DNA from: Phycisphaeraceae bacterium
GTDB lineage: Bacteria; Planctomycetota; Phycisphaerae; Phycisphaerales; UBA1924
Reading direction: 5' to 3'
Assembly: GCA_019636515.1 (NCBI GenBank)
Contig: JAHBXI010000001.1
Span: 930,001-994,000 of the forward strand
Length of the DNA: 64,000 bases
The position numbers and the translations under genes are program-made. The notes under the pieces were generated by a model. It searched no databases, had not been told where the DNA came from, and was given only the letters and a program-made list of their open reading frames with translations. Positions 31,895-35,684 of this stretch are shown one piece after another. The stretch's first letter is position 1, and every line of letters starts with the position of its first letter.

Positions 31895-32298
31895 AGCAAC
31901 CCACCCGCTCGCGGCCCCCACGGCTCGCCCGACCGCGATCAACCTTCTCTCTCCGACACCGACTCCCCGCCGTGCCCAGGGCCACCACCATGCACCGGAG
32001 GACCAGGCAGCCTCGTGCGCGCACGAGGTCCGGCCCCCCGCCACGCCCCCCGCCCCACCCCCTCCAAACCACATTTGTGTGAAGTTCTCGGCCCGACCGG
32101 GGATTTTGCTTGCACAACCCCCACGCGTGTGGCAGAGTGAAGAGGCAGCGCCTTCGCACCGGAGCCGGGCCCTCGATGGCCCAAAATCCCCGATGGCCCG
32201 AATCCAAACCGCACGGGGCGGTTCGGCCGGTGAAAAGGAACTTGCCATTTCACGGGGCGCGGGGGCTGTCCGAGCCCGAGCGTCCGGGGAGATCAATC
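31895..32298. other. Long leader region before the poly-G gene, with 18-base palindrome
   Basis: This 404-base stretch shows no convincing gene. It contains a perfect 18-base palindrome (32011-32028, CCTCGTGCG followed by its reverse complement), several runs of C, and a possible -35-like TTGCAC at 32110-32115 without a good -10. GGGGAG lies just before the GTG at 32299. Confidence 0.4.
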
Positions 32299-33818
32299 GT
32301 GAAGCATCGAAACCGGATCGTCCTGCTCGCGGGTTGTGCCATTTCCTCCTTCGCCGTGCTCGCGTCGCCCGCCCGCGCGGTCGGTGGTGGGGGGGGGGGG
32401 TAACGCACTATTCGGAGGATGAACCCGTGCAGCCCGCGTGCCAGGTCCCCGCCTTCATGTGTTCCCAGGTCCCGTACCTTCAACCCAACCAGACGTGGAT
32501 CCCCGGGGTGCTGAACTGGGCTCCCAACCGCATGCCCGCCGCGTGGATCAACCTGTGGCCGAAAAAATACTGCTCAATGGGCTCGCCGGATATTCGGGGC
32601 AACTACCGCGGCCTTCAATCCTGGTGGTACGCCGAGGATGATGATCCGTCGTACGACGGATCGGGTGATCCGGCGGATTCGGCTTTCGCCACGCTGGAAC
32701 TCAAACTGACCCAGGCGTACAACCACGGGTTCCGGCGGATCATCCTGAACCTGCCGGCGGGCATGGTGTACGAGCAGAACATGTCCAGCGCTCACTGGTG
32801 GTCGATGCCCGCGTGGAAGCGGGCTCGCCTGGCCTGCCTGATCCAGAACTGGCTGATTTCGAAGCCCGACACGCAGTTCGAGATCTACGGGGCGTTCGAG
32901 ATCAACGATTCGACGTCGCTGTGCATGAAATCAAACATATACGCGGTGCGAACGATTGCCAGCGGTCTTGGCTGCAACGCCACCGGGCACGGCTACATGT
33001 ACTATCCGTGTCTTGGCGCTGCGACCGCATACCCACCCTCCGCGTTCGTACAACCGGACGCCTGCGAGTTCCACGACAATATCAACCCGTGGCAGCAACT
33101 CGGGATCAGCCGATACTGGCTGGATTACGCGAACCATCATTGGGATGCGTACGTGGAGTTCCCGTATTCTCCGCTGTACGCGCCGGCGATGGGGGAGCAC
33201 CATTTCCTGGGTGCGGAATCGGTGCCGAACATCCATCACGGCGGGACCGATTACTCGATCGATATTGGTAGAATCATATATTCGCCTGCCATCGCTATCA
33301 ACACCATGCCCACGGTGAACAAGTACAAGACGTGGGATATTCATGCATATAGCGCGCAGACGGAAGTGGTGGTAGTCCTCGATCACTCTGATGATGAATA
33401 TTGGAACATCAACCACATGTTTGATGTGCTCGCCTGGTCACAGAAGGGCTTCGTGGTCGCGGTTCAGGGCGTGGCCGTCATCGGCATGCCCGCCGTGCCG
33501 GCCACCGAGATCATCGAGTTCGTCAAGCGCGTCTACGACTTCGGCCCTCTCGCCGACGCCAACGACTTCAACGGCGATGGTCTCGTGGATGAGCATGATG
33601 TGACGGATTTCAACGCGATGTACGCCATCTACTTCGGCCGCACCAACTGCAACTGGGTCCACGGGGATGTGAACCAGGACAACACCGTCACGCTCGCGGA
33701 CCTCCTGGCGTTCAACTCGCGCCGGATGATCGCCGGCACGCCGGGAACACCCGGGTACACGCCGATCCCGATCAACCTCGGCGCGGCCGATCCCTACGAC
33801 GCCCTGACTCGCCCTTGA
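32299..33818 (+). CDS. Exported dockerin-bearing protein split by a poly-G frameshift
   Basis: The GTG at 32299 (after GGGGAG) begins a textbook signal peptide, KHRNRIVLLAG to SPARA, of 27 residues. This frame enters a run of 12 G and stops at TAA 32401, giving a 34-residue peptide. The mature part (VTHYSEDEPVQPAC onward) continues in another frame to 33818. One extra G, or two fewer, joins the frames into 506 residues. The central region (LQSWWYAEDDDPSYDGSG, KLTQAYNHGFRRIILNLPAG) is not a family I recognise. The C-terminus has two dockerin-type calcium loops (DFNGDGLVDEHD, DVNQDNTVTLAD). Base composition is more AT-rich in the middle. Phase variation, transcriptional slippage or an assembly error could each explain the split. 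Confidence 0.75.
32389..32400. repeat. Run of 12 G at a frame junction
   Basis: Twelve consecutive G follow GGTGGT directly after the signal-peptide coding sequence. In the + frame they read as four Gly codons and then TAA. Lengths of 10 or 13 would restore the frame. Confidence 0.95.
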
Positions 33819-33865: not shown

Positions 33866-34570
33866 ATGACTTTGATTGAATCGACCTTGTGCGTGAGCCA
33901 TCGAGCCGCCGCCGGTCTGGTGTTCCTCGGCGTGTCCGTGCATGCCGCGACCACGCTCGCGGCGGTGATTGTTCACGACAACTCGGCCCGTGAATTCGTG
34001 TGGACAATTGGCCTGCGCTTTACCGACCACTCCGAGTTGCCGGGCAACTTCCTGGACATCACGCAGCCGCCCTCGCAGTCGGGTGAACGACTCCCGGGGA
34101 CGTTCTCGTACTGGATTCGGCCGAGTTACACGAGTTCCGATCCAGGTATACTTTTTTTTCAGGGCGAGCCCGGCGCGCAGACGGCAAGAACATCGGATTG
34201 GGTAGAACTATTATGGAATAATATGATGATTGGCGTAAAGCCTACGCGAGAGTATTTCTACGGCGAGCACGTGATGCAACCGGATAACTGGCTTTCCGTT
34301 AGCACCTATTATTACTTGCTGCCTCATTCCTTCAGTCTCGCGGGCGGCACCCCCGCGATCAGCGAGGCCGCCTACCTCGGCGTGCGCACCCAGATCGCCG
34401 GACGCTGGCACTACGGCTGGATCCTGTTCACCGAGTACTTGACGCCGGCGATGTGGGCCTACGAGACCACGCCCGACACCCCCATCGAGATCCCCATCCC
34501 CGCCCCGGGCGCGGCGTGCATCCTGCTGGCGGGGTCGATGCTCATCACCCGCCGCCGACGGGGTGGGTAG
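33866..34570 (+). CDS. PEP-CTERM-type exported protein, paralogue A
   Basis: A 234-residue exported protein; the ATG at 33866 follows TTGAGGA at good spacing. The signal peptide runs to about residue 31. The beta-rich body contains LDITQPPSQSGE and GRWHYGWILFTEY. The tail is IPIPAPGAACILLAG followed by a cluster of Arg, a variant PEP-CTERM sorting signal. It is 48 bases downstream of the dockerin protein and probably cotranscribed. Its paralogue at 34980 has the same length. The coding sequence holds eight T in a row (34154-34161), unusual for this genome. No known function. Confidence 0.8.
   Translation: MTLIESTLCVSHRAAAGLVFLGVSVHAATTLAAVIVHDNSAREFVWTIGLRFTDHSELPGNFLDITQPPSQSGERLPGTFSYWIRPSYTSSDPGILFFQGEPGAQTARTSDWVELLWNNMMIGVKPTREYFYGEHVMQPDNWLSVSTYYYLLPHSFSLAGGTPAISEAAYLGVRTQIAGRWHYGWILFTEYLTPAMWAYETTPDTPIEIPIPAPGAACILLAGSMLITRRRRGG
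34346..34511 (+). repeat. Near-identical 166-base block, copy A
   Basis: Matches 35457-35622 with 11 mismatches by eye (93%); the last 68 bases are identical. It encodes the end of the beta domain and the start of the sorting tail. The upstream halves of the two genes are much less alike. Confidence 0.85.
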
Positions 34571-34650
34571 AAAGAGGGGGAAATCGATTCCATGAAGCGC
34601 GTCTACGACAGAAAGAGGGGGAAACCGATTCCATGAAGCGCGTCTACGAC
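34569..34650 (+). repeat. 41-base tandem repeat containing RBS and start codon
   Basis: Two 41-base units (34569-34609 and 34610-34650) differ at one base. Each contains AAAGAGGGGG, an ATG and the first codons MKRVYD. The repeat sits at the junction of the larger 1,111-base duplication and begins inside the stop region of paralogue A. Confidence 0.95.
34592..34636 (+). CDS. Possible 14-residue leader peptide made by the 41-base repeat
   Basis: The first repeat unit's ATG opens a frame MKRVYDRKRGKPIP. Its TGA overlaps the ATG of the dockerin gene as ATGA. The arrangement would permit translational coupling, but it may simply be a by-product of the duplication. Confidence 0.3.
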   Translation: MKRVYDRKRGKPIP

Positions 34651-34905
34651 TTCGGCCCTCTCGCCGATGCCCGTGACTTCAACGGCGATGGGGACGTCAA
34701 CCAGCAGGATGTGGACGACTTCATGCTCGTCTACAACCTGTATCTCGGCCGCACCAACTGCAACTGGGTCCACGGGGACGTCAACGGCGACAACGTGGTC
34801 AACGTGGCCGATTACCTGCTCTTCCGCGCCCGCTCGATGATGACCTCGGCCGTCCCCATCAACCTCGGCACGGCCGAGCCGTACGACGCCCTCACCAAGC
34901 CATGA
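34633..34905 (+). CDS. Stand-alone dockerin-type module (90 aa) without signal peptide
   Basis: This gene encodes only a dockerin-like pair of calcium loops (DFNGDGDVNQQD and DVNGDNVVNVAD) and the ending INLGTAEPYDALTKP. It corresponds to the last ~98 residues of the split dockerin protein (KRVYDFGPLADA... PYDALTRP). Its ATG at 34633 and its AAAGAGGGGG ribosome binding site come from the 41-base tandem repeat. The product begins directly at the module and lacks an export signal, which is odd for a dockerin. It may be an expressed remnant, or may depend on an alternative route out. It is the second-copy equivalent of the dockerin in the 1,111-base duplication. Confidence 0.65.
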   Translation: MKRVYDFGPLADARDFNGDGDVNQQDVDDFMLVYNLYLGRTNCNWVHGDVNGDNVVNVADYLLFRARSMMTSAVPINLGTAEPYDALTKP

Positions 34906-34979: not shown

Positions 34980-35684
34980 ATGAAACTTCAAACGGATTTT
35001 CATCCCAGTGTACTGCTTCATATTATGGGCTTCATCGGCGCCACGTGCGTGATGGTGGCCTCGGCGCGCGCGGCCGTGGTTGTGTACGACAACAGGGATG
35101 GGGAGTTTTTTTGGGAATTGAGCGTCATATATACAGATTCTTCAGAATACCCGGCTAATTTTCTCGACATCACTCAGCCGCCCAGCCAGTCCGGTGAGCG
35201 CCGGCCCGGGACCATCGGGAAGTGGTACCGTCCAAATATCACCAGTTCGGGTTGGGGGACCCGGTTCCTGAGAGGAGAATCCGGAGTTGAAACAGCCAAA
35301 ACAAGCGACTGGGTGGTAATCAACTGGAATGGGAACGACTATCTTCAGCAACCGACACGCGAATATGCCGGCGGCGAGCGGGTGCAATCGTCCGACCACT
35401 GGAATATCGTGAGTACTTATTTCTACCACCTGCCCTGGACGTGGGACCTTACAAAGGGCACGCCCGCGATCAGCCAGGCGGCGTACCTCGGCGTGCGCAC
35501 GCAGATCTCCGGTCGCTGGCACTACGGCTGGATCCTGTTCACCGAGTACAAGTGGCCGGCGATGTGGGCCTACGAGACCACGCCCGACACCCCCATCGAG
35601 ATCCCCATCCCCGCCCCGGGCGTGCTCCCCCTCGCCGCGTGCCTTGGCATCCTGACCGCGTCACGGAGGCGATCGCTCCGCTGA
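34980..35684 (+). CDS. PEP-CTERM-type exported protein, paralogue B
   Basis: A 234-residue paralogue of the 33866 gene, clearly homologous along its length. The ATG at 34980 follows CGAGGA. The signal peptide ends near VASARA (about residue 31). Shared segments are LDITQPPSQSGE and GVRTQISGRWHYGWILFTEY. The tail is IPIPAPGVLPLAACLG then an Arg-rich end. Its 5' half is AT-richer and diverged, with a run of seven T (35106-35112), while its 3' 166 bases are 93% identical to paralogue A. A FIST gene begins 15 bases later under its own TACACT box. Confidence 0.8.
   Translation: MKLQTDFHPSVLLHIMGFIGATCVMVASARAAVVVYDNRDGEFFWELSVIYTDSSEYPANFLDITQPPSQSGERRPGTIGKWYRPNITSSGWGTRFLRGESGVETAKTSDWVVINWNGNDYLQQPTREYAGGERVQSSDHWNIVSTYFYHLPWTWDLTKGTPAISQAAYLGVRTQISGRWHYGWILFTEYKWPAMWAYETTPDTPIEIPIPAPGVLPLAACLGILTASRRRSLR
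35457..35622 (+). repeat. Near-identical 166-base block, copy B
   Basis: Partner of 34346-34511 at a 1,111-base offset; see that entry for identity. Confidence 0.85.

Follow-up and report, generated by a model that had tools for sequence, protein, structure and literature searches.

Simple-repeat contingency loci have mostly been described in host-adapted pathogens and commensals, for which immune escape is the usual explanation, and work by van der Ende from 2000 is said to describe both a promoter tract and a coding tract for porA. In the porA, fetA and opc switches homopolymers located between -10 and -35 change expression (PMC5320596; PMC2791445). The open-licence literature searched contained no description of a planctomycete with homopolymer phase variation, which agrees with the sequence-only reading of the locus presented here, where no described planctomycete case had been known. 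The mechanism class is well known, and it is the phylum and the apparent scale that seem to be new. The locus is located in a window of 64,000 nucleotides, the whole stretch of DNA that was analysed, from a Phycisphaeraceae genome of 3.39 Mb in 7 contigs. With a probability of roughly 0.77 we take a G tract in this window to be a contingency (phase-variation) switch acting on the translation of a dockerin-like protein that is predicted to be exported.

The proposed switch is a tract of exactly 12 G at 32389-32400 on the forward strand. The frame leading into it starts with GTG at 32299 and encodes a predicted signal peptide (VKHRNRIVLLAGCAISSFAVLASPARA, 32299-32379, forward strand) with n, h and c regions and an AxA cleavage site recognised by eye; three codons past the signal peptide (GTC GGT GGT, VGG...) it enters the tract and ends, in the assembled (off) state, at TAA 32401-32403. 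The mature frame (VTHYSEDEPV...DALTRP) is open over 472 codons (32400-33815, stop codon 33816-33818) in a phase different from that of the signal peptide, and the sequence of the predicted exported mature protein (32400-33818, forward strand) begins with VTHYSEDEPVQPAC and ends with ...YDALTRP. According to frame arithmetic a tract length of 1 mod 3, that is 10 or 13 G, is the only one that fuses both parts. Re-reading the sequence reproduced exactly what had been described before, namely a signal peptide running from GTG 32299 through 12 G into TAA 32401, and it also bore out a mature sequence continuing in another frame, with 472 open codons under purifying selection, as well as 10 or 13 G as the joining lengths. 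The signal peptide, its cleavage site and the promoters described below are predictions from sequence; export of the product is suggested by the signal-peptide features seen by eye and by homologous signal peptides (MKHR...) in a sister species. An internal promoter with the window tract as spacer was also considered and rejected by eye, as no -35-like hexamer is present at the right distance.

Two full paralogues of the gene are present in the same genome; they are 65-67% identical, and each has the same leader and, at the corresponding junction, a long G tract. One tract has 11 G (C1:505632-505642), and the other, on contig C3, is composite, with (GGT)n(AGT)2(TG)n followed by 12 G (109635-109646); tract length thus varies between paralogues in the assembled sequence (G12, G11, composite plus G12). 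Frame arithmetic by script puts all three loci out of frame, with 10 or 13 G as the lengths that join each of them. In line with contingency loci, for which a homopolymer of at least about 8 in the 5' coding region is characteristic, the tracts of G12, G11 and G12 lie within the first 45 codons, tract length sets the frame in which the gene body follows the start at all three loci, and the downstream frame is intact and under selection though out of phase. The mature frames are open over 464-472 codons in the three copies with a pairwise dS of 0.78-0.84 and a dN/dS of 0.24-0.33, showing that all three 'off' mature sequences are under purifying selection and maintained. As there is no decay at such dN/dS values, we infer that some cells, or cells at certain times, must produce the protein. 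Among the 48 G/C tracts of at least 9 in this genome only six reach at least 11, and three of these six, including both 12-mers, are found at the signal-peptide/mature junction of the three paralogues, which is more than chance. The leader (~370 nt) is 97-100% identical across the three loci over most of its length and the mature part is a mosaic of blocks with 59-100% identity; because the leader is near-identical and homogenised, the three tracts count as one origin and not as three independent ones. The alternating conserved and divergent blocks had prompted us to consider diversifying selection, which we rejected overall in view of a dN/dS <0.35. Two further tracts of this genome are located at sites unexpected for unstable sequence, namely where the N-termini of trpB (C11, C4:85604) and clpX (C10, C1:759623) are encoded, both in frame.

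The shared leader cassette, comprising promoter, 5' UTR and signal peptide, extends over 32020-32388 on the forward strand and is also found, 98-99% identical, at the two paralogous loci and partly at two further loci. A leader free of the G tract occurs at C3:538508-538815 ahead of a gene for an FG-GAP-like exported protein and a companion gene, and the promoter part of the leader is also present ahead of a lone companion gene in the same genome; judged from these positions the leader seems to behave like a portable cassette. Its predicted core promoter is TTGCTT-N18-TGGCAG (AGTGAAGAG, 32106-32135, forward strand), which aligns with TTGCAA-Gn-TRGCGTA promoters of the sister species and looks homologous to them but without the G run. 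The spacer of the window gene (GCACAACCCCCACGCGTG) carries no G tract, and the window gene itself does not have the porA/fetA arrangement. Upstream of the promoter an 18-bp perfect palindrome (CCTCGTGCGCGCACGAGG, 32011-32028) was found, the left half of which (CTCGTGCGCAC/CTCGTGC) is also present upstream of the promoters of the sister species in an alignment of both upstream regions; the palindrome is a candidate regulator site. Downstream of the gene follow, all on the forward strand, a companion exported protein (33866-34570, ~234 aa, beta-rich, ending in a proline-rich motif, a TM segment and RRRR), a partial copy of the dockerin-like C-terminus (MKRVYDFG..., 34633-34905, a 91-residue frame) and a second companion exported protein (34980-35684), which is a paralogue of the first. 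The companion fold was predicted as beta-rich with a pLDDT of 76 and gave no convincing PDB match; its C-terminus resembles PEP-CTERM, with no NCBIfam PEP-CTERM model matching at E<=1. A T8 run inside the first companion gene (34152-34159), present also in a paralogue at C3:430418, is a possible second slippage site, and a 41-bp tandem duplication (AGAAAGAGGGGGAAA[T/C]CGATTCCATGAAGCGCGTCTACGAC, 34568-34649) is located between the companion genes at the start of the partial dockerin copy.

The mature protein had been called a dockerin protein, a label that is weak for the window copy alone (16.7 bits against PF00404, with a cutoff of 22.9); in the family as a whole 11 of 11 members match PF00404 at E<=1 with a best E of 1.6e-5. 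The dockerin-type-I-like repeats are C-terminal; an alpha/beta (TIM-like) domain is possible at low confidence, and no Pfam or NCBIfam family matched the N-terminal domain. The fold prediction for the mature protein was poor (pLDDT 47) and its PDB matches were weak and mostly TIM barrels (best E 0.009), and we excluded these matches from the evidence. A contig scan with the single window protein gave no match, and a scan with the family alignment gave loci of the sister species only.

This sister species, the MAG Phycisphaerales bacterium SJ192 (JADLBU01), belongs to the same genus and has ~10 homologues of the window gene and 15 companion genes. Its signal peptides, which begin with MKHR... 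in those copies that are closest, are continued in frame by the mature domain, with no poly-G in between. A signal-peptide frame that is not conserved in homologues, or a fixed 13 G in relatives, had been named beforehand as speaking against phase variation. The frame is conserved, as the MKHR... copies continue unbroken into the same mature domain, and a fixed 13 G was not seen in relatives, the two paralogues having 11 and 12. In SJ192 the tract is instead located in the promoters of the operons, which read TTGCAA/TTGAAA - CC...Gn... - T(A/G)GCGTA. Ten distinct promoters carry G7-G16 between -35 and -10, and most or all of them are located ahead of operons of the window family. Nine have spacers of 17, 17, 17, 17, 18, 18, 18, 19 and 20 with tracts of 10-16, and the G7 copy has a spacer of 14. 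Tract and flank length are negatively correlated (r = -0.88, permutation p = 0.002, nine promoters with the G7 copy left out), so the spacer stays near 17 despite changes of the tract because the flank compensates. The promoter pattern gave 11 matches and none in the reversed control; as the regular expression used for collecting requires both hexamers, the compensation and not the presence of the hexamers is the evidence. The homologous operons of SJ192 show what is seen in porA, fetA and opc, a tract between -35 and -10 with a total spacer near 17. Poly-G is also present exactly at contig ends in SJ192 (C66:1-24, C70:1-20) and in the genomes G094 and G091, which may be a two-colour sequencing artefact, so that raw counts of G12 per genome overstate the real tracts.

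In order to cover a wider range, 150 relatives were searched with the generic pattern TTGA-N3-9-G10-N2-10-TANNNT, and the reversed pattern served as control. Thirty of them matched with ~67 listed sites, some of which overlap, compared to 3 in the reversed control. Among the 90 genomes of family f1 27 matched, and 3 of the 60 genomes of other families. The -35 bases left free in the query were C in 56/60 and A in 41/60 distinct sites, and flank length again offsets tract length (r = -0.41, p = 0.0004). Genes starting within 120 nt downstream encode prepilin-like N-termini in 7/33 cases compared to 2/100 crude controls (p = 8e-4) and any export feature in 24/33 compared to 48/100 (p = 0.011); Pfam assigned PF07963 to six of these genes and dockerin to another. 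The G tracts read in genomes from the order's other families (G102, G117, G110, G115) look mostly intergenic and outside a promoter or signal-peptide context, and we therefore limit the claim to family f1. Possible spacers of the same kind are present in the genome of the window, a C11 noticed by eye (C3:296307-296317, TTGACT-..-TACCGT) and a G10 (C2:268986-269011, TTGACA-..-TAGGCT), each ahead of a prepilin-like gene; these two genes are related to each other. G038, which is a one-contig genome from another genus, has MRPRSLVTACTLAATLAAFASAPHERITG followed by G19 and a 540-residue mature part whose frame differs from that of the signal peptide. The protein is unrelated to the window protein and BNR-like at E 0.015 only, and by its sequence arrangement we regard this junction as an independent case of the same type. 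The same genome has, beside TTGACA, a G/C-alternating stretch whose runs measure 26 and 24 (C1 near 1854933) and a C27 between TTGACA and TAGACT (C1 near 1285190); these would be either assembly artefacts or extreme expansions. At C1 near 421764 of G038, G14 is located between a TAGACT box and the start GTG of a prepilin-like gene, which gives a third position for a tract, the ribosome-binding site.

An assembly error, by which true in-frame tracts (e.g. 13 G) were undercalled as 12, 11 and 12 and the genes are in fact always on, is the likeliest of the alternatives but improbable in our view. Several platforms have difficulty with homopolymers of 12, the 7-contig assembly may be long-read based, and three of three copies are off, which speaks against phase variation, as it has a chance of ~0.3 if the loci are independent and a systematic undercall would give the same result. 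Against general homopolymer miscalling argue ~10 other genes, clpX and trpB among them, that have G/C runs of 9-11 in their coding sequence and are intact in frame as judged by frame and codon-position composition (the doubtful others, all but one, looked like gene ends or intergenic sequence). Long G tracts were moreover found at the same gene family in the separately assembled MAG of SJ192 and in the one-contig genome of another genus, and an undercall shifts the phase of a tract but neither its presence nor its recurrence. Since 12 is harder than 10, some chance of such an error remains. Long homopolymers can also slip during transcription, and the conserved mature frames need no switching of the DNA, so one might think of RNA polymerase slippage or ribosomal frameshifting on the G run, with a steady in-frame fraction and the tract as an expression damper instead of a heritable switch. 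This would be useless in a promoter spacer, where SJ192 and many relatives carry the tract and where a change in DNA length is useful, and we consider it quite unlikely.

Two further explanations have very little probability. If the upstream part were a leader peptide and translation restarted inside the gene, a deliberately signal-less protein would be made; GGAGG is indeed located 8 nt before an in-frame GTG in copies A and B and an ATGA overlap is found in copy C, the candidate sequence of the window being at 32400-32435 and those of the paralogues just past the tract. These sites differ among the copies, however, the SJ192 homologues make one continuous exported protein, and a dockerin-type protein that is not exported makes little sense. 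That the copies are dead or decaying and the repeat is neutral seems just as improbable: all three copies are out of frame and broken family copies exist in SJ192, but the mature frames of 464-472 codons have no stops at a dN/dS of 0.24-0.33 and the leader is kept at 97-100% identity. Taken together, the recurrence of the tract, purifying selection on three 'off' frames, the ~10 unbroken genes with comparable tracts and the porA-like spacers of the sister species favour phase variation, as had been proposed from the window.

The most economical reading of these sequences would be phase variation through slipped-strand mispairing, which would act on translation in the window gene and the two paralogues and on transcription in the sister species. 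Tract position, frame logic, recurrence, maintained frames and promoter anatomy are read from the sequence itself, and from there we infer replication slippage, on/off expression and a surface role. In each generation slipped-strand mispairing would alter the length of the tract in a small share of the cells. At 10 or 13 G the exported protein would be made in full and have a few additional glycines behind the cleavage site, and at other lengths a signal-peptide-sized fragment of ~34-44 residues would result. With near-identical promoter and leader at three paralogues each locus would flip independently, so that the related secreted proteins would be presented by a population in varying combinations. 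The sister species would switch this operon family one step earlier, by the poly-G between -35 and -10. It also seems more likely than not that a family of Phycisphaerales possesses an extensive poly-G contingency system, in which dozens of exported, prepilin-like and dockerin-like proteins would be switched stochastically. In most cases the poly-G would be located in the core-promoter spacer and in some species at the junction of signal peptide and mature part, and the cassette of promoter and signal peptide would be homogenised between loci.

If true, this poly-G system would, within the open-licence literature searched, be the first repertoire of phase variation to be described for Planctomycetota. 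A comparable system in environmental planctomycetes, acting on secreted dockerin-like and pilin-like proteins, would indicate other selective pressures, for instance from phages, from predators or from a patchy supply of substrates. Genome annotations will list genes of this kind as absent or truncated. One gene family with a frame switch in one species and a promoter-spacing switch in its sister would also allow a direct comparison of both modes.

The window locus resembles the homopolymer contingency loci of Neisseria and other host-associated bacteria in that an early homopolymer in a gene for a (here predicted) exported protein sets the frame, the downstream frame is intact and several paralogues carry the tract (PMC5320596; PMC2831843). 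It differs from them in belonging to a planctomycete, in the position of the tract directly behind the signal-peptide cleavage site, in length variation known from assembled paralogues alone, and in a tract that is part of a leader cassette common to divergent mature domains. Its C-terminal DFNGDG...HGDVNQDN repeats are like those of dockerin type I (PF00404), although the window copy is below the Pfam cut-off. Compared to porA, fetA and opc of Neisseria, the tract of the window gene is located in the coding region and its own promoter spacer has no G run, whereas SJ192 and many relatives have, like these switches, poly-G between the -35 (TTGCAA/TTGACA) and the -10 of surface-protein genes.
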